Below, one piece after another: positions 29,328 to 36,730 of a DNA stretch of 64,000 nt. The position numbers and the translations under genes are program-made. Numbering within the stretch: the first letter of the stretch is position 1; each line of letters starts with the position of its first letter. The notes below the pieces were generated by a model. That model was not told where the DNA came from, ran no database searches, and worked only from the letters and a program-made list of their open reading frames with translations. Origin of the DNA: Robiginitalea sp. (GTDB lineage Bacteria > Bacteroidota > Bacteroidia > Flavobacteriales > Flavobacteriaceae); contig JAHECA010000012.1 of assembly GCA_024642005.1 (NCBI GenBank), forward strand, positions 1 to 64,000, read 5' to 3'.

Positions 29328-29918
29328 ATGAAAAAGAATGTATTTACCCTGATCCTCACTCTGGTTGCAGGCGCAACCGTCCTGGCTACCGAACCCGTAA
29401 CCGGCGAAAAGCGTGAAGTGAGCACCGAGAAAAGTACCGTAACCTGGAAAGCCTACAAGGTTACCGGGTCGCACACCGGCACCATTGCCCTGCAAAGCGG
29501 CGCCCTGGTATTCGACGGCGGCCAGCTCAGCGGAGGCGAATTTACAGTCGACATGACCACCCTTACCTCCACCGACCTGGAAGGGGAGTGGAAAGACAAA
29601 CTGGTGGGCCACCTGAAGTCAGAAGATTTCTTTGCCGTGGAAAATCACAACACCTCCACCCTGGTTTTCACCCAGGTGAAGGCCACGGGCAAAAATTCCT
29701 ACCAGGTTACCGGCGACCTTACTATCAAGGGCATCACCAAGCCAGTAACCTTTGACCTGTCGGTGTACGGCAGCAAGGCAACCGCTACCATGAAGGTAGA
29801 CCGGGCCCAGTACGACATCCGCTACGGCTCCGGAAGCTTTTTCGACGACCTGGGCGACAAGACCATCTACGACGAGTTCGATATGGTGGTAGACCTGGAG
29901 TGGGACCCGGCCAGCTAA
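29328..29918 (+). CDS. YceI-family periplasmic lipid-binding protein
   Basis: From the ATG at 29328 the protein is 196 aa with a signal peptide (1-20, 'MKKNVFTLILTLVAGATVLA'). The mature part has the YceI lipocalin-like pattern 'EKSTVTWKAYKVTGSHTGTIALQSG', 'FTVDMTTLTSTD', 'HLKSEDFFAVENHNTSTLVFT' and 'GDLTIKGITKPVTFDL'. YceI proteins bind isoprenoid chains such as polyprenyl quinones. It is the third gene of the marR unit (40-bp gap) and is followed by a terminator. Pairing with a quinone-type reductase is consistent with a quinone-related role (inference). Confidence 0.93.
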   Translation: MKKNVFTLILTLVAGATVLATEPVTGEKREVSTEKSTVTWKAYKVTGSHTGTIALQSGALVFDGGQLSGGEFTVDMTTLTSTDLEGEWKDKLVGHLKSEDFFAVENHNTSTLVFTQVKATGKNSYQVTGDLTIKGITKPVTFDLSVYGSKATATMKVDRAQYDIRYGSGSFFDDLGDKTIYDEFDMVVDLEWDPAS

Positions 29919-29940: not shown

Positions 29941-29972
29941 AAATCGCCGGAAGTTCCCGGCGATTTTTTTTT
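29941..29972 (+). terminator. Intrinsic terminator after yceI
   Basis: AAATCGCCGG (29941-29950) and CCGGCGATTT (29957-29966) form a 10-bp stem with a 6-base loop, followed by T to 29972. It isolates the marR unit from the trp promoter, which starts 8 bp later. Confidence 0.9.
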
Positions 29973-29979
29973 GATCGGG

Positions 29980-30010
29980 TTTGCGCAATTGAATTTGATC
30001 CCTATATTTG
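29980..30010 (+). promoter_or_regulatory. trp operon promoter
   Basis: TTTG (29980-29983), a 19-bp spacer and TATATTTG (30003-30010) match the Bacteroidetes consensus closely. The expected start is about 30015-30017, practically at the ATG of the leader peptide (30017), so the leader would be translated from a leaderless or nearly leaderless mRNA. Confidence 0.8.
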
Positions 30011-30016
30011 GGTTCT

Positions 30017-30073
30017 ATGAAACTGTATACGACTACAAACTGGTGGTGGAACTTCAAGCGCGGAAATTCGTGA
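30017..30073 (+). CDS. trpL: trp leader peptide with three consecutive Trp codons
   Basis: This 18-codon frame reads MKLYTTTNWWWNFKRGNS and then TGA. The three tandem TGG codons are at 30041-30049. It sits 7 bp after the trp -7 box and 29 bp before a hairpin terminator that precedes trpE, the classic layout of ribosome-mediated attenuation. ACAAAC (30035-30040) just before the Trp codons can pair with GTTTGT (30089-30094), extended by GG/CC across a bulge. This is the expected 1:2 stem that a ribosome stalled on Trp codons would disrupt. Confidence 0.88.
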   Translation: MKLYTTTNWWWNFKRGNS

Positions 30074-30102
30074 CCTGAGCCCCTTGCCGTTTGTGCATCA
30101 TA

Positions 30103-30136
30103 AAAAAAGGCTTGTCTGTCACGACAGGCCTTTTTT
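30103..30136 (+). terminator. trp attenuator terminator
   Basis: AAAAAAGGCTTGTC (30103-30116) and GACAGGCCTTTTTT (30123-30136) form a 14-bp stem (one G-U) with a 6-base loop and a terminal T-run, 24 bp before trpE. The upstream GAGCC (30077-30081) can pair with GGCTT (30109-30113), which would break the terminator and act as antiterminator. That alternative fold is short and only a proposal. Confidence 0.85.
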
Positions 30137-30159
30137 AATTGGAATAATCCGGAATAGAC

Positions 30160-31557
30160 ATGGCATACCCCTTAAAGACCTATACCAAAAAAATCCTGGC
30201 CGACACCATCACCCCGGTGAGCGTGTACCTTAAAATCAGGGACCGTTTCCCGGCCAGCATCCTGCTGGAGAGCAGCGACTACCATGCCAACGACAATTCG
30301 TTTTCCTACGTGTGCTGCAACCCCCTGGCATCCATTCGCGTGGAACATGAGACGATTTACCGGGAGTTCCCCGACGGCAGTCGGGAAGAGACGCCCATTG
30401 GCCCCGATACAGATGTCGCCATGGAAATCCACAGGTTTGCGGCCGCCTTCCAGGTTGAAAAGAACGGCTTCAAGTTTATCAATAACGGCCTGTTCGGCTA
30501 TATGGCCTACGATGCGGTGCGCTATTTCGAAGACATCGCAATCGGCAAAAAGGCCGACTCGCCGGCGATCCCCGACATCTACTACGCGGTCTACCAGAAC
30601 ATCATCGCCATCAACCACTTCAAGAACGAGGCCTATCTCTTCGCCCATACCTACGACGGGCCCAACAACCTGCCTTTACTGGAGCAGCTGCTCTCGGTCC
30701 AGACTTTTGCTTCATACCGCTTTCAGAAGGAAGGGGAACGCCGCTCCAACCTCCAGGATGCCGAATACCTCGAGCATGTAGCGCTGGCCAAAAAGCACTG
30801 TGCCCGGGGCGACGTGTTCCAGCTGGTGCTTTCGCGCCGCTTTTCACAGGGTTTTAAAGGGGACGAATTTAACGTGTACCGGGCCCTGCGTTCGATAAAC
30901 CCTTCGCCCTACCTCTTTTATTTTGACTACGGCAGCTTCAAAATCTTCGGCAGCTCGCCTGAAGCCCAGCTCATCGTCCAGAAGGGGAAGGCGGAGATCC
31001 ATCCCATTGCAGGCACCTTCAAAAGGACCGGCAACGACGAGGAAGACGCCCAGCTGGCCAAGCAGCTGGCGGCAGACGAGAAGGAAAATAGCGAACACGT
31101 GATGCTGGTCGACCTGGCGCGAAACGACCTCTCGCGCAACGGCAATACCGTACAGGTGGAAACCTTCAGAGAAGTACAGTATTTCTCGCACGTCATCCAC
31201 CTGGTGTCGAAGGTTACAGGCCTCAAGAAGCCCGACAGCCCAACCATGAAGGTGGTGGCCGACACTTTTCCGGCCGGCACCTTAAGCGGGGCGCCCAAGC
31301 ACATGGCCATGCAGCTGATCGAGCGGTATGAGAAAACCAGCCGTACCTATTACGGAGGTGCCATCGGTTTTATGGCCTTTGATGGCGATTTTAACCACGC
31401 CATCATGATCCGCACCTTTTTGAGCAAGAACCACACCCTGTACTACCAGGCTGGGGCCGGCCTGGTGGCCGCCTCAGAGCCGCAGGCCGAACTGCAGGAA
31501 ACCTACAATAAACTGGGAGCCCTGGATCAGGCACTGGAAATCGCCGAATCGCTCTGA
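30160..31557 (+). CDS. trpE: Anthranilate synthase component I
   Basis: This 465-aa chorismate-utilising enzyme makes anthranilate with TrpG. The Trp feedback motif LLES-x10-S is intact (L35-L36-E37-S38 and S49), so allosteric inhibition by tryptophan is expected. The C-terminal chorismate-binding part contains 'VLSRRFSQGF', 'PEAQLIVQKGKAEIHPIAGTFKR', 'ENSEHVMLVDLARNDLSR' and 'TFPAGTLSGAPKHMAMQLI'. It is the first structural gene of the operon, after the attenuator; trpG starts 1 bp after its stop. Confidence 0.97.
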   Translation: MAYPLKTYTKKILADTITPVSVYLKIRDRFPASILLESSDYHANDNSFSYVCCNPLASIRVEHETIYREFPDGSREETPIGPDTDVAMEIHRFAAAFQVEKNGFKFINNGLFGYMAYDAVRYFEDIAIGKKADSPAIPDIYYAVYQNIIAINHFKNEAYLFAHTYDGPNNLPLLEQLLSVQTFASYRFQKEGERRSNLQDAEYLEHVALAKKHCARGDVFQLVLSRRFSQGFKGDEFNVYRALRSINPSPYLFYFDYGSFKIFGSSPEAQLIVQKGKAEIHPIAGTFKRTGNDEEDAQLAKQLAADEKENSEHVMLVDLARNDLSRNGNTVQVETFREVQYFSHVIHLVSKVTGLKKPDSPTMKVVADTFPAGTLSGAPKHMAMQLIERYEKTSRTYYGGAIGFMAFDGDFNHAIMIRTFLSKNHTLYYQAGAGLVAASEPQAELQETYNKLGALDQALEIAESL

Positions 31558-31558
31558 T

Positions 31559-32128
31559 ATGAAAAAGGTTCTGGTTATCGACAATTACGACAGCTTTACC
31601 TACAACCTGGTCCACTACCTGGAAGAACTGGGGTGCGAGGTGCATGTGAGGCGAAATGACAAACTCGACCTGGAAGAAGTGGCGGCCTACCAGCGTATCG
31701 TGCTCTCGCCCGGGCCGGGCATACCCGACGAGGCCGGACTGCTGAAACCTATTATTGCCCGCTATGCCTCCGAAAAGCAGATTTTCGGGGTTTGCCTCGG
31801 GCAGCAGGCCATCGCTGAGGTGTTCGGCGGCAGCCTGGTTAACCTCGACCGGGTGTACCACGGGGTGGCCACCGATATTTCGGTTGTGCAAAACGACCGC
31901 ATCTTCAAAGGGCTGCCGCGGCGGCTCCGGGTGGGTCGATACCACTCCTGGGTAGTGCACCCTGCGCTTCCCGAATGCCTCGAAGCCACCGCCCTCGACG
32001 ACCAGGGCGAGGTCATGGCCCTGCGTCACCGCCAGTACGACGTATGTGCCGTTCAGTTCCACCCCGAATCGGTGCTGACCCCCGAAGGCAAAGAAATGCT
32101 GGCCAACTGGTTAAATGCAGAATCATGA
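31559..32128 (+). CDS. trpG: Anthranilate synthase component II (glutamine amidotransferase)
   Basis: This 189-aa class I amidotransferase supplies ammonia to TrpE. The nucleophile is C79 in 'FGVCLGQQAIAEVFGG', and the His-Glu pair is in 'VQFHPESVLTPEG'. 'LSPGPGIPDEAG' is the conserved oxyanion-side loop. Its stop overlaps the trpD start (ATGA), so translation is coupled. It is a stand-alone domain, not fused to TrpD. Confidence 0.97.
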   Translation: MKKVLVIDNYDSFTYNLVHYLEELGCEVHVRRNDKLDLEEVAAYQRIVLSPGPGIPDEAGLLKPIIARYASEKQIFGVCLGQQAIAEVFGGSLVNLDRVYHGVATDISVVQNDRIFKGLPRRLRVGRYHSWVVHPALPECLEATALDDQGEVMALRHRQYDVCAVQFHPESVLTPEGKEMLANWLNAES

Positions 32129-33126
32129 AAGAAACCCTCAACAAACTTATCGAGCACCAGCTGCTGAGCCGGGATGAAGCCCGGCAGGCCATGGTGGAAA
32201 TTGCAAGCGGCTCCCAGAATACCAGCCAGATTGCCGCCTTCCTCACCGTCTTTATGATGCGCAGCGTGAGCACCGAGGAACTCGAAGGCTTCCGCGACGC
32301 CCTTCTGGAGCTTTGCCGCCCGGTAGACCTGGGCGGTTGCGAGCCCATTGACCTTTGCGGCACCGGGGGAGACGGAAAAAACACCTTCAACATTTCCACC
32401 CTTGCCTCATTTGTTACAGCCGGGGCAGGCATCCCGGTGGCCAAGCATGGCAACTACGGGGTGTCTTCCCACTGCGGCAGCAGCAACGTGCTGGAATTTT
32501 TGGGTATCCGGTTTTCGAATGAAGCCGATTTTCTGAGGCGCTGCCTCGATCAGACAGGTATCTGTATCCTGCACGCCCCCCTGTTTCACCCGGCCATGAA
32601 ACACGTGGCCCCCATTCGCAGGGAGCTGGCCGTCAAAACCTTCTTCAACATGCTGGGCCCTATGGTAAACCCCGCCTTGCCGAAATACCAGATGGTGGGG
32701 GTGTTCAACCTGGAACTGGCCCGGATGTACGGATACCTTTATCAGAATACCGACAAGAAATACAGCATCCTCCACGGGTTGGACGGTTATGACGAAATTT
32801 CCCTGACCGGGCCGGCCAAATGGATCGGCAACCAGACAGAAACCGTTTTGACCCCGGCCGACTTCGGCATGCCTGTTCTGGAACCGGGAGCCATTTTTGG
32901 GGGCGACAGCATCGAAGAGGCGGCGCAGATTTTCCTGGCCGTCCTGCAGGGGAAGGCTACAGAAGCCCAGCAGGATGTGGTCTGTGCCAATGCCGCACTG
33001 GCCATCGCCACGGTGCGGGGCGGGACCCTGGACGAGGCCGTGTGCCAAGCCAGGGAATCGCTTAAGAGCGGCAGGGCCCTGGAAGCTTTCCGCAAATTGC
33101 AAAATCTGAGTGCCGTCCATGGGTGA
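32125..33126 (+). CDS. trpD: Anthranilate phosphoribosyltransferase
   Basis: From the ATG at 32125 the protein is 333 aa. The PRPP-binding 'DLCGTGGDGKNTFNISTLASFVTAGAGIPVAKHGN' and the 'HPAMKHVAPIRRELAVKTFFNMLGPMVNP' segment are complete. It transfers phosphoribose to anthranilate. An earlier in-frame start lies inside trpG and was rejected because ATG/TGA overlap coupling is natural here. It is followed by a 172-bp gap before trpC. Confidence 0.97.
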   Translation: MKETLNKLIEHQLLSRDEARQAMVEIASGSQNTSQIAAFLTVFMMRSVSTEELEGFRDALLELCRPVDLGGCEPIDLCGTGGDGKNTFNISTLASFVTAGAGIPVAKHGNYGVSSHCGSSNVLEFLGIRFSNEADFLRRCLDQTGICILHAPLFHPAMKHVAPIRRELAVKTFFNMLGPMVNPALPKYQMVGVFNLELARMYGYLYQNTDKKYSILHGLDGYDEISLTGPAKWIGNQTETVLTPADFGMPVLEPGAIFGGDSIEEAAQIFLAVLQGKATEAQQDVVCANAALAIATVRGGTLDEAVCQARESLKSGRALEAFRKLQNLSAVHG

Positions 33127-33200: not shown

Positions 33201-33208
33201 TATCTTTG
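33201..33208 (+). promoter_or_regulatory. Possible internal trp promoter before trpC
   Basis: TATCTTTG matches TAnnTTTG in the only sizeable gap of the operon (33127-33298). TTTG at 33184-33187 is 13 bp upstream, shorter than the usual 19. A 14-bp self-complementary GGGGGGC/GCCCCCC (33214-33227) follows directly. It could drive trpCFBA independently of the attenuator. Confidence 0.4.
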
Positions 33209-33298: not shown

Positions 33299-34084
33299 AT
33301 GGACATCTTACAGCAAATAGCCGCTGATAAACGGCGGGAAGTGGCCCTCAAGAAAAGGTGCGTTCCGGAAGACCAATTGCGGGGAACGGCCCTCTTTACC
33401 CGGCCGACGCATTCCATGAAGGCCTCCCTGCAAAACCGGGCATTCGGCATCATAGCCGAACACAAAAGGCGCTCACCTTCCCGTGCGGTTATCAACCAAA
33501 ACGTGGCCCTTCCCGCGGTGGTGACCGGATACGAAAAAGCCGGGGCTGGGGCCGTCTCGGTGCTTACCGACGGCACCTATTTCGGCGGTTCTTTAGACGA
33601 CCTGCTGCTGGCGCGGGCCTGCACGGGGTTGCCCCTGCTGCGCAAGGAATTCATGCTCGACCCTTATCAGGTGGTCGAGGCACGAGCCCATGGTGCCGAT
33701 GCCATTTTGCTGATTGCAGCCTTGTTGGATCGATCTGAAATAGCGGCCCTGGCCAACCTGGCCCACGACCTGGGCATGGAAGTGCTCATGGAGGTGCACA
33801 GCGCTGAGGAACTGGAAGAAGCCCTTGTCCCCGGCCTGGACATGATCGGGGTAAACAACCGCAACCTGAAGACCTTTGAAGTATCCCTGGATACGAGCCG
33901 GCAACTGGCCCCGCTGATCCCGGACTCAGCCCTGCGCATATCGGAGAGCGGCCTGGGCGAAGCGTCCCAGCTGCGCGAACTCAAAGCCCTGGGGTACCGC
34001 GGCTTTTTGATGGGGGAATCATTTATGAAACAGCCCGACCCGGGGATCGCCCTGGCCGGGTTCCTGAAAGAACTCCCGGCATGA
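33299..34084 (+). CDS. trpC: Indole-3-glycerol-phosphate synthase
   Basis: This 261-aa TIM barrel closes the indole ring. Conserved pieces are 'IIAEHKRRSPSRAVI', 'VLTDGTYFGGSLDDL', 'LLRKEFMLDPYQVVEARAHGADAILLI', 'MEVLMEVHSAEEL', 'IGVNNRNLKTFEVSLD' and 'ISESGL'. The catalytic Lys and Glu positions of the family lie in these segments. It is a separate protein, not fused with TrpF, whose start overlaps its stop by 4 bp. Confidence 0.97.
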   Translation: MDILQQIAADKRREVALKKRCVPEDQLRGTALFTRPTHSMKASLQNRAFGIIAEHKRRSPSRAVINQNVALPAVVTGYEKAGAGAVSVLTDGTYFGGSLDDLLLARACTGLPLLRKEFMLDPYQVVEARAHGADAILLIAALLDRSEIAALANLAHDLGMEVLMEVHSAEELEEALVPGLDMIGVNNRNLKTFEVSLDTSRQLAPLIPDSALRISESGLGEASQLRELKALGYRGFLMGESFMKQPDPGIALAGFLKELPA

Positions 34085-34734
34085 AACTGAAAGTCTGCGG
34101 CATGAAACACAACCCCCTGGAGGTTGCAGCCCTGAGGCCCGATTATATCGGCTTTATCTTCTGGGAAGGTTCGGCCCGAAATTATTCGGGGCCTTTGCCG
34201 CAGGGGCTGCCCGAACCACCCGGGCGCGTGGGGGTATTTGTAGACGCCACCCCCGCGGCAATCCTGGCCAAATGCCGGGAATTCCGCCTGGCCCTGGTGC
34301 AGCTGCACGGCTCGGAAACCCCGGCCTACTGCCGCGAAATCCGCGACCTGCTTGCCCTTGAATGCAAGGTGCCACCGCTGCTGATCAAGGCTTTTGCCGT
34401 GGGCGACGACTTCGATTTCGGCCCGCTGGAGGCCTACCTGCCACTGGTAGACTATTTCCTGTTCGACAGTCGCGGACCCCTGCCTGGAGGCAATGGTACC
34501 GGGTTTGACTGGAAACAGCTGCAGGGGTACCCTTTCGACAAACCCTATTTTTTGAGCGGAGGGATTTCACAGGAAGATCTGGAGCGGCTGACCGTTTTCT
34601 GCCAGAGTCCGGCAGCCCGGTTTTGCCATGCACTTGACGTAAACAGCCGCTTTGAACGGAGCCCGGGAGAAAAAGACATCGGGCGCCTGAAGCAATTTAT
34701 GGAGGCCGGCCCCTGGTCGTGCCCAAGGCAATAA
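34081..34734 (+). CDS. trpF: Phosphoribosylanthranilate isomerase
   Basis: This 217-aa TIM-barrel isomerase begins '[10 protein letters not shown]', with the catalytic cysteine in the KVCGM motif. '[12 protein letters not shown]', '[17 protein letters not shown]' (catalytic Asp and phosphate loop) and 'FLSGGIS...ALDVNSRFE' follow. Its ATG overlaps the trpC stop (ATGA). It lies 10 bp before trpB. Confidence 0.96.
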
Positions 34735-34744
34735 ACAGTATAAG

Positions 34745-35932
34745 ATGAGTTCATATCACGTAGATGAAAACGGGTTTTACGGCGAGTTCGGGGGTGCCTT
34801 CATTCCTGAAATGCTTTATCCCAACGTAGAGGAATTGCGCACCTGCTACCTCGACATCCTGGCCGACCCGGCCTTCCAGGCCGAGTTCCGGCAGCTCCTG
34901 AGCGATTATGTGGGGCGGCCCACGCCCCTGTATTATTCGGTGCGCCTCTCCGAAAAATACGGCAGCAAGATCTACCTGAAACGGGAAGACCTCTGCCATA
35001 CGGGCGCCCACAAGGTAAACAACACCATCGGACAGATTCTGCTGGCCAAACGCCTGGGCAAGACCCGCATCATCGCCGAAACGGGGGCAGGGCAGCACGG
35101 GGTGGCAACCGCCACCGTCTGCGCACTAATGGGATTGCCCTGTGTGGTTTATATGGGAGCCGTAGACATTGCCCGCCAGGCACCGAACGTGGCCCGCATG
35201 AAACTACTGGGGGCCGAGGTGCGGGCGGCCACTTCGGGAAGCCGCACCCTGAAAGATGCCACCAACGAGGCCATCCGCGACTGGATCAACAACCCAGTAG
35301 ACACGCATTACATCATTGGCTCAGTGGTAGGGCCCCACCCCTACCCCGATATGGTGGCCCGTTTCCAGTCGGTCATCTCTGAGGAAATTCAGTCCCAGTT
35401 GCAGGAAGCCGAAGGGCGCCCCGACCCGGATTACCTGATCGCCTGTGTAGGCGGGGGCAGCAATGCCGCAGGGGCTTATTACCATTACCTCGACCGCCCA
35501 GATGTAAAAATACTGGCGGCCGAAGCGGCCGGGAAAGGCGTAGATACGGGCGAAAGCGCCGCCACCTCAGCCCTGGGCAGGGTTGGGATTATCCACGCCA
35601 GCAAAACCCTGCTCATGCAGACCGACGACGGACAGATTACCGAACCCTATTCCATTTCGGCAGGCCTGGATTACCCTGGGGTGGGGCCTCTGCACGCACA
35701 CCTGTTCGCCACGGGCCGGGCCACTTTTATACCCGTAACCGATGCCGAGGCCATGCAGGCCGGGCGCGAACTGGCCGAACTCGAAGGCATTATCCCGGCC
35801 ATTGAGACCTCCCATGCCCTGGCCCTGCTGGCCATGGGCTCCGTCCCAAAAGGATCGCTCGCCGTAATCAACCTTTCGGGCCGGGGCGACAAAGACCTGC
35901 AGACGTACATCGATTATTTCAAGCTCGCTTAA
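34745..35932 (+). CDS. trpB: Tryptophan synthase beta chain
   Basis: This 395-aa PLP enzyme joins indole with serine. The PLP lysine is in '[19 protein letters not shown]', the phosphate loop is '[13 protein letters not shown]', and the C-terminal motif is '[13 protein letters not shown]'. This is the standard TrpB1 form that works with TrpA, encoded 9 bp downstream. Confidence 0.98.
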
Positions 35933-35941
35933 GCCCATACC

Positions 35942-36730
35942 ATGTCAAGCGCCTCCGCAACACCCGTCAATCGCCTACATACAGCCCTTTCCAAACCAGG
36001 GAAGCTCCTGTCAATCTATTTTACAGCAGGCTTTCCCAGGCTGGAAGACACCGTTCCCATCTTGCGCGAACTCGAGGCGGCCGGGGCAGACCTGGTTGAG
36101 ATCGGCCTGCCTTTCAGCGATCCGCTGGCCGACGGCCCCACCATTCAGCAGAGTTCCACAGAAGCCCTGCACAACGGCATGACCACGGCCCGGCTTTTCG
36201 AACAACTGGAGGGCATCCGCCGGGAAGTGAGCCTGCCCCTGATTCTCATGGGCTACTTTAACCCCGTGCTCCAGTTTGGGGTGGAAGCTTTTTGTCGTCG
36301 CTGCGCAGAGGTGGGGATAGACGGCCTCATCTTGCCCGACCTGCCCCTGGATAGCTACGAAAGGGAATACCGGCCCATTTTGGAGCGGTACGGGCTCAGC
36401 ATGGTTTTCCTGATCAGCCCGCAGACCAGCAATGCGCGCATACGGCAGATCGACGACGCATCCGACAGCTTTATCTACATGGTGAGCTCGGCGAGCACTA
36501 CCGGGGTACAAAAAGGCTTTGGCACTGCCCAACAGGCCTACTTCGAGCGCATCGAAAGCCTCGGGCTGCAGCATCCGCAACTGGTGGGCTTTGGCATTGG
36601 CGACGCCGACAGCTTTCGCGCCGCCACCACCCACGCCAAGGGGGCCATTATCGGCTCGGCCTTTATCCGACTGCTCCGCGAAGAAGGGGTGGCAGGCATC
36701 CGGTCATTTATTAAAAAAATACGGCCATGA
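35942..36730 (+). CDS. trpA: Tryptophan synthase alpha chain
   Basis: This 262-aa TIM barrel cleaves indole-3-glycerol phosphate. The catalytic glutamate is in 'ADLVEIGLPFSDPLADGPTIQQSS' and the catalytic aspartate in 'IDGLILPDLPLDSYE'. The phosphate loop 'GFGIGDADSF' and 'IIGSAFIRLL' are present. It is the last biosynthetic gene; its stop overlaps the start of a small membrane-protein gene. Confidence 0.98.
   Translation: MSSASATPVNRLHTALSKPGKLLSIYFTAGFPRLEDTVPILRELEAAGADLVEIGLPFSDPLADGPTIQQSSTEALHNGMTTARLFEQLEGIRREVSLPLILMGYFNPVLQFGVEAFCRRCAEVGIDGLILPDLPLDSYEREYRPILERYGLSMVFLISPQTSNARIRQIDDASDSFIYMVSSASTTGVQKGFGTAQQAYFERIESLGLQHPQLVGFGIGDADSFRAATTHAKGAIIGSAFIRLLREEGVAGIRSFIKKIRP

Follow-up and report, generated by a model that had tools for sequence, protein, structure and literature searches.

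What controls the trpEGDCFBA operon in this Robiginitalea genome, and how would a ribosome reach a leader start codon that lies almost at the predicted 5' end of the mRNA? The window analysed here, 64,000 nt of contig JAHECA010000012.1, carries a short frame with tandem Trp codons, a terminator hairpin and then trpE. We consider it very probable that this element belongs to the Bacteroid-trp family (RF01692) and controls trpEGDCFBA by ribosome-mediated transcription attenuation. The case is built on sequence, conservation, complementarity and predicted folds, from which we infer the ribosome footprint, the timing, the transcription start and the response to Trp.

The trp leader and operon

The original prediction described an 18-codon frame with three TGG codons, a promoter box and a terminator ahead of trpE, and all of these were found at or near the positions given for them. 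The leader region has the following features.

29980..29983, + strand: -33 element TTTG, 19 nt before the -7 box, read from the sequence
29994..30116, + strand: match to Rfam RF01692 Bacteroid-trp, 37.1 bits (gathering score 49)
30003..30010, + strand: -7 element TATATTTG, which matches the Bacteroidota consensus TAnnTTTG
30015..30016, + strand: predicted transcription start, from the spacing rule of F. johnsoniae and F. psychrophilum
30017..30073, + strand: leader ORF MKLYTTTNWWWNFKRGNS, 18 codons, ATG at 30017 and stop TGA at 30071-30073; position and WWW run conserved
30034..30046, + strand: segment 1 of the protector stem (UACAAAC and GGUGG), predicted fold
30041..30049, + strand: three tandem Trp codons (TGG x3), the putative sensor, read from the sequence and conserved
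30068..30074, + strand: candidate antiterminator core, 5' strand UCGUGAC, which overlaps the stop codon of the leader; possible extension by GAGCC at 30077-30081
30084..30095, + strand: segment 2 of the protector stem, pairing with 30034-30046, predicted fold
30103..30136, + strand: intrinsic terminator, 14 bp with one G-U, a 6-nt loop and a T run at the end
30118..30124, + strand: candidate antiterminator core, 3' strand GUCACGA, in the terminator loop and the first part of the 3' arm; possible extension by GGCUU at 30109-30113

The operon follows on the same strand.

30160..31557, + strand: trpE, anthranilate synthase component I; best NCBIfam match TIGR00564, below the curated cut-off
31559..32128, + strand: trpG
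32125..33126, + strand: trpD (scanned as 32125-33123)
33299..34084, + strand: trpC
34081..34734, + strand: trpF, matches below curated cut-offs
34745..35932, + strand: trpB
35942..36730, + strand: trpA

Within the window alone, single signals such as the Trp run and the promoter pattern are close to chance. TGGTGGTGG occurs twice where 0.58 are expected, a count of two being reached in 8 of 100 shuffles; the two-box promoter pattern also occurs twice, against 1.07 expected, with 28 of 100 shuffles reaching that number; and TAnnTTTG occurs 34 times against 25.1 expected. The leader is, however, conserved across relatives, and this places the element beyond chance. A search of the genome itself with the pattern TTTG-ATG-TGGTGG proved too loose to be of use (73 matches versus 38 in the reversed control), and a blastn comparison of the region with plasmids gave nothing but trpE-like coding matches among the matches listed.

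Conservation of the Trp-rich leader

DNA upstream of trpE was taken from 10 genomes of the genus and from 106 further genomes of the family (Flavobacteriaceae), one per genus. Two of 109 family trpE loci (G075 and G088) were left out, the gene being partial or cut at a contig end, and the counts also exclude L002 (a paralogue) and L189, L231 and L235 (almost no upstream sequence). The W-rich frame, which the original prediction expected to recur in close relatives, is present upstream of trpE at 113 of the 116 genus and family loci by automatic search, comprising all 10 in the genus and 103 of 106 in the family, and at 10 of 10 further same-family loci. The three misses differ in kind: the sequence of L030 starts inside the Trp run at a contig end, an inserted gene in L096 pushes the leader 529 nt upstream, and at L117 a W-rich leader is absent upstream of trpE. 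Among named relatives, which partly duplicate the genus and family genomes, 79 of 80 have the leader and the 80th has 1 nt of upstream sequence. Outside the family, the leader was found at 21 of 31 loci from other families of the order, including one (L221) that looks like a chance frame inside another gene. It was also found at 32 of 44 class loci, a count of loci and not of genomes (G236 gives two) that includes the weak trpE matches L283 and L284 (33-37% identity) and leaves out G230, whose trpE is at a contig end.

Of the ten misses in the order, eight belong to a single family (f16) with genomes of 0.6 Mb, possibly endosymbionts of insects, in which trpE is kept and no W-rich leader was found (L225, L253, L259-L263 and L265). 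In other families of the Flavobacteriales the Trp leader is longer and ends far past the Trp run, with a C-terminal part that is alike between genomes, for example LSNSSSGLK.LS or PVL.QY..Q (L207-L210, L213, L214, L216-L220, L256 and L257).

A gene for a GIY-YIG nuclease of ~95-100 aa lies between the trp terminator and trpE at eight loci (L096, L123, L124, L125, L135, L163, L175 and L177), where the leader is 490-578 nt upstream of trpE. PF01541 was matched in the three of three tested, and the frames are shorter in L135, L163 and L175. Short TTTCC...GGAAA hairpins flank the gene at the three loci examined. It looks like a small mobile gene that has either settled repeatedly or spread by descent.

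Membership in the Bacteroid-trp family

Is this a new class of attenuator? A match to RF01692 in a low-threshold Rfam scan rules this out; a default Rfam scan had missed it. RF01692, named "Bacteroidete tryptophan peptide leader RNA" in Rfam, is a motif listed in Table 1 of Weinberg et al. 2010 (PMC2864571), and its model positions 1-131 align end to end with the window element, upstream of trpE. The window scores below the gathering score (37.1 against 49), as do 9 of the 10 genus genomes, with one above. The element is therefore not filed in the family by the curated cut-off, and its homology rests on its place and on genome-wide hits. Upstream of trpE is the best place for RF01692 in 10 of 10 genus genomes at E <= 10; at this threshold the genus genomes also have five weaker matches at other places, and matches turn up in 7 of 14 control genomes, one of them above the cut-off. 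At E <= 0.001, the model matches 87 of 120 family genomes, 77 of them above the cut-off. Of the 87 matches, 86 precede trpE in the same orientation by no more than 700 nt, and the 87th is at a contig end. Of 20 relatives selected for another scan, 9 pass the gathering score.

The window element shares with RF01692 a Trp-rich peptide leader in the Bacteroidota, the position upstream of trpE, a similar 1:2 hairpin and the GGCUUGUC end. Judged by these likenesses and the alignment, it is a member of the RF01692 kind, which is already catalogued. The model stops in the 5' arm of the terminator and thus comes without the terminator 3' arm and without the UCGUGA/UCACGA antiterminator described below, and its first 20 positions align to promoter DNA in the window. 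A 2019 study states that Bacteroid-trp is conserved upstream of the F. psychrophilum trp operon (PMC6414381), and a 2021 transcriptome of that species reported strong clues for leader-peptide attenuation before amino-acid operons (PMC9723704). Naville and Gautheret (2010) wrote of leader-peptide systems known to them in Proteobacteria and Actinobacteria only. The present analysis supports reading this published family as a complete attenuator whose antiterminator can be identified, a part that is missing from the Rfam model.

Predicted transcription start and probable near-leaderless layout

In F. johnsoniae, the -7 box has its G at -5, and a distance of 4 or 5 nt from box to start marks probable promoters (PMC6847099); in F. 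psychrophilum, the box is reported to span -12 to -5 (PMC9723704). This Flavobacterium spacing would put +1 at 30015 or 30016 and make the 5' UTR 2 or 1 nt long. The claim that the leader ATG is no more than about 2 nt away from the 5' end to be expected thus agrees with the promoters of that genus. A near-leaderless layout, with a predicted 5' UTR of 1-2 nt, is probable here and well supported by the sequence, if not proven.

An exact -7 box lies no more than 60 nt upstream of the leader in all 10 genus and in 101 of 103 family leaders, and was detected for just 12 of 21 order leaders and 23 of 32 class leaders. The distance from box to ATG is 3-7 nt in 10 of 10 Robiginitalea leaders. Across the family (n = 101) it is 3-7 nt in 32, 8-12 nt in 24, 13-25 nt in 41 and longer in 4, and 10 of the 12 order boxes and 10 of the 23 class boxes are at 3-7 nt. 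Spacings of 4-8 nt occur in Robiginitalea, Maribacter (13 of 14, one without a box), Allomuricauda (9 of 10, one without a box), Muricauda, Flagellimonas, Arenibacter, Cellulophaga, Eudoraea, Zobellia, Muriicola, Croceitalea, Aurantibacter, Galbibacter and Joostella. Spacings of 16-19 nt are found in Flavobacterium, Aquimarina, Aureibaculum and Aestuariivivens; Pareuzebyella has 30 nt, and 12 further relatives fall between 4 and 19 nt.

An alternative is that the element is an ordinary leadered attenuator, with transcription starting farther upstream and a normal short 5' UTR before the ATG. Such a layout would suit what is reported of Flavobacterium, in which most mRNAs are leadered: leaderless mRNAs make up 5.5% in F. 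psychrophilum (PMC9723704), and 87% of an F. johnsoniae set have leaders >10 nt (PMC6847099). In Bacteroides thetaiotaomicron, 5' UTRs <10 nt are given as ~3.7% (PMC7366714). It would also suit the 41 of 101 family leaders whose box is 13-25 nt from the ATG, as well as the RF01692 consensus, which has ~20 nt ahead of the AUG. The Robiginitalea leaders themselves, however, all have the box at 3-7 nt. In the window, the box is accompanied by a -33 TTTG at 19 nt, the upstream YceI-family gene ends at 29918, the box at 30003 is the sole exact plus-strand -7 consensus between 28155 and 33200, and the nearest one upstream is as far away as 28147. In addition, relatives with 13-25 nt spacing have an A-rich stretch before the ATG that is missing at short spacing, the A fraction of the last 6 nt being 0.68 at 13-25 nt versus 0.31 at 4-7 nt (genus, family, order and class sets). 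On balance, we regard a leadered layout as unlikely at this locus.

The near-leaderless reading can be extended beyond the window, and in this broader form we give it about an even chance. It holds that the Bacteroid-trp attenuator has gone leaderless in Robiginitalea, Maribacter, Muricauda/Flagellimonas, Arenibacter, Cellulophaga, Eudoraea and Zobellia, with a His attenuator of Robiginitalea perhaps nearly so; that loading at a 5'-AUG sets the timing of attenuation; and that an antiterminator in the stop region reads the position of the ribosome. The relatives would then form a natural series from leadered to nearly leaderless on one switch, in bacteria reported not to rely on Shine-Dalgarno sites. 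Such a spacing series would allow the effect of initiation mode on translation-transcription coupling to be measured.

Two further features of the region were noted. By eye, a GC-rich hairpin followed by a T run at 29944-29973 is the likely terminator of the YceI-family gene and would set the trp promoter apart from upstream transcription. A further -7 consensus, TATCTTTG, at 33201-33208 (+ strand) in the trpD-trpC gap may be an internal promoter or a chance occurrence.

Protector stem and terminator

The RNA from 30010 to 30150 is more stable than most shuffled versions of it (z = -2.60; 3 of 200 shuffles were equally stable), and with no ribosome its predicted fold consists of a 1:2 hairpin and the terminator. 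In the 1:2 stem, 30034-30040 is predicted to pair with 30089-30095 and 30042-30046 with 30084-30088, close to the 30035-30043/30087-30094 stem drawn earlier. Alignment A1, which holds the 111 of 113 genus and family leaders in which a terminator was found, was used to follow these helices in relatives. The equivalent of the 1:2 stem is paired in 70.8% of 1027 cells, compared with 28-51% when the arms are slid, and its covariation score of 0.124 (0.080 for shuffled) is above all shuffles; in the 111 leaders, pair types and pairs with two-sided change are not in excess over shuffles.

The terminator is the most regular part of the element. Its central 8 bp are paired in 99.9% of 888 cells, with two-sided changes at 8 of 8 pairs, and an intrinsic terminator was detected after 101 of 103 family leaders. 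An Atu_C9 sRNA match on the minus strand reflects the symmetric terminator hairpin (26.7 bits versus a cut-off of 40) and was set aside.

A candidate antiterminator at the leader stop codon

What, then, would keep the terminator from forming? The original prediction proposed a short 2:3 pairing of 30077-30081 with 30109-30113. This 5-bp helix can form, and it misses what appears to be the core. In the minimum free energy fold of 30063-30124 (-16.3 kcal/mol), it is absent and the helix present is 30068-30074/30118-30124. The 5-bp pairing can be added by hand only and was rejected as the main antiterminator; the core helix together with it, both alone, comes to -13.6. When the RNA is free from 30086 on, the terminator folds instead. 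A mutually exclusive antiterminator is thus predicted from complementarity and folding. The complete terminator (-19.2) is more stable than the antiterminator (-13.6 to -14.2), so that the switch would have to be kinetic, with the choice made during transcription.

Conservation also speaks for the core helix. Of 113 genus and family leaders, 98 have T[CT]GTGA downstream of the last Trp codon, 90 of them at a distance of 18-19 nt. The stop codon varies more in these 98 leaders: relative to the motif's first base, it ranges from 13 nt ahead to 8 nt past it. Since the offset of the motif is fixed while the stop codon wanders, it appears to be an RNA arm, and not the end of the peptide, that is held relative to the stall site. 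The UCGUGA/UCACGA helix is paired in 94.7% of 665 cells, compared with 3.8-55% when slid. Its covariation is weak (score 0.071 versus 0.072 shuffled, a value that 331 of 500 shuffles reach) because the helix is nearly invariant within the family; two-sided changes occur in 4 cells against 0.5 expected, and the 3' strand is partly held by the terminator stem as well. In some family and class members, both strands have changed in step: TCGCAA/TTGCGA in L094, TCGCGA/TCGCGA in L104, GGATTCAG/CTGAATCC in L109, TGAACAGC/GCTGTTCA in L278 and GAGAAGC/GCTTCTC in L212, L223 and L254. In a duplex test that shuffles one strand, 5% of loci are expected among the best 5 of 100 shuffles. That rank was reached by 74 of the 111 loci from the genus and family, by 7 of the 10 additional loci of the same family and by 22 of the 49 from the order and class, a result well above 5% and far from all loci.

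It could be argued that the peptide itself is the signal, with conserved C-terminal residues (NNLRQTS and similar) acting in the ribosome tunnel, and the residues after WWW are indeed similar within genome groups. The conserved nucleotides nevertheless hold their 18-19 nt offset while the stop codon shifts and the peptide ends differ, which points to RNA pairing and makes a nascent-peptide effect very improbable. That a protein or another RNA is the sensor (TRAP, TrpR or a T-box) and the W-rich frame is incidental seems scarcely credible, given that the frame, the Trp run, the distance to the pairing arm and the downstream terminator are conserved together and that the 21 Rfam matches obtained for the region at E <= 10 include no T-box family.

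How the attenuator may work

A conserved short tandem-Trp ORF before a trp gene, with an intrinsic terminator between the leader and trpE, is the arrangement of a ribosome-mediated attenuator, and the steps of its operation may be proposed. With a predicted 1-2 nt ahead of the leader ATG, loading of the first ribosome should be leaderless or nearly so. When charged tRNA-Trp is plentiful, the ribosome would pass UGG-UGG-UGG and reach the stop at 30071. The UCGUGAC strand overlaps the leader stop codon, so that a ribosome at the stop would cover the 5' strand of the antiterminator; the terminator at 30103-30136 would then form, and transcription would end before trpE. When tRNA-Trp is uncharged, the ribosome would stall on the Trp codons and leave just outside it the antiterminator strand, whose first base is 18 nt past the last of these codons. 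Free UCGUGAC could then pair with GUCACGA before the 3' arm of the terminator is complete, allowing read-through into trpE. If no ribosome is present, segments 1 and 2 would pair and hold the antiterminator strand in the hairpin, with termination by default.

A histidine leader in the genus

Upstream of hisG, all 10 Robiginitalea genomes (L293-L302, with L298 from the window's genome) have a leader of 17 residues that contains a run of His, M...HHH...AQAR or AQAW. Judged by eye, the ATG of this leader is 7-8 nt after a TAnnTTTG-like box, which is exact in 4 of 10 (L294, L295, L296 and L300) and reads TACATTTA in the window's genome. A terminator-like hairpin lies downstream, and in the window's genome the end of the frame, GCTCAGGCG, is complementary (with two G-U) to CGTTTGAGC of the hairpin. 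Three his-leader loci gave no Rfam match at E <= 0.05. The his leader suggests, and does no more than suggest, that near-leaderless attenuators are a habit of the genus. At ILVD loci, 15 of 17 of which were examined in the genus, short frames with branched-chain runs were seen in L313 and L315 only.

Comparison with known Trp attenuators

The logic of segments 1 to 4 in the Escherichia coli trp attenuator is also that of the window element. The E. coli trp leader is leadered and has a Shine-Dalgarno site. Unlike in E. coli, the antiterminator strand proposed for the window lies across the leader stop codon and has its partner in the terminator loop.

The original prediction regarded the coupling of Trp attenuation to a leaderless leader ORF as unusual. 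This view does not hold, since leaderless leaders have been published for trpL of Sinorhizobium meliloti and trpL1 of Streptomyces lividans, and the combination is therefore known in two other phyla. For the Bacteroidota, no published report of a leaderless trp attenuator was found in a literature search that lay mostly outside subscription journals. The S. meliloti trpL-trpE(G) system is described as a ribosome-mediated attenuator with a leaderless Trp leader ORF that begins at the ATG; it differs from the window in its 14-aa peptide, its place in the Alphaproteobacteria and its reported roles in trans (PMC7298713). The trpL1 leader of S. lividans (MFAHSTRNWWWTAHPAAH) is described as an 18-residue WWW leader, 'transcribed leaderless' upstream of trpE and followed, as in the window, by hairpins and a U stretch (PMC8079986). 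It differs in belonging to the Actinobacteria and in preceding a monocistronic trpE (PMC8079986). Set beside these systems, the Robiginitalea locus belongs to a family that was already known, to which the candidate antiterminator core and the apparent series from leadered to leaderless leaders would be the additions.
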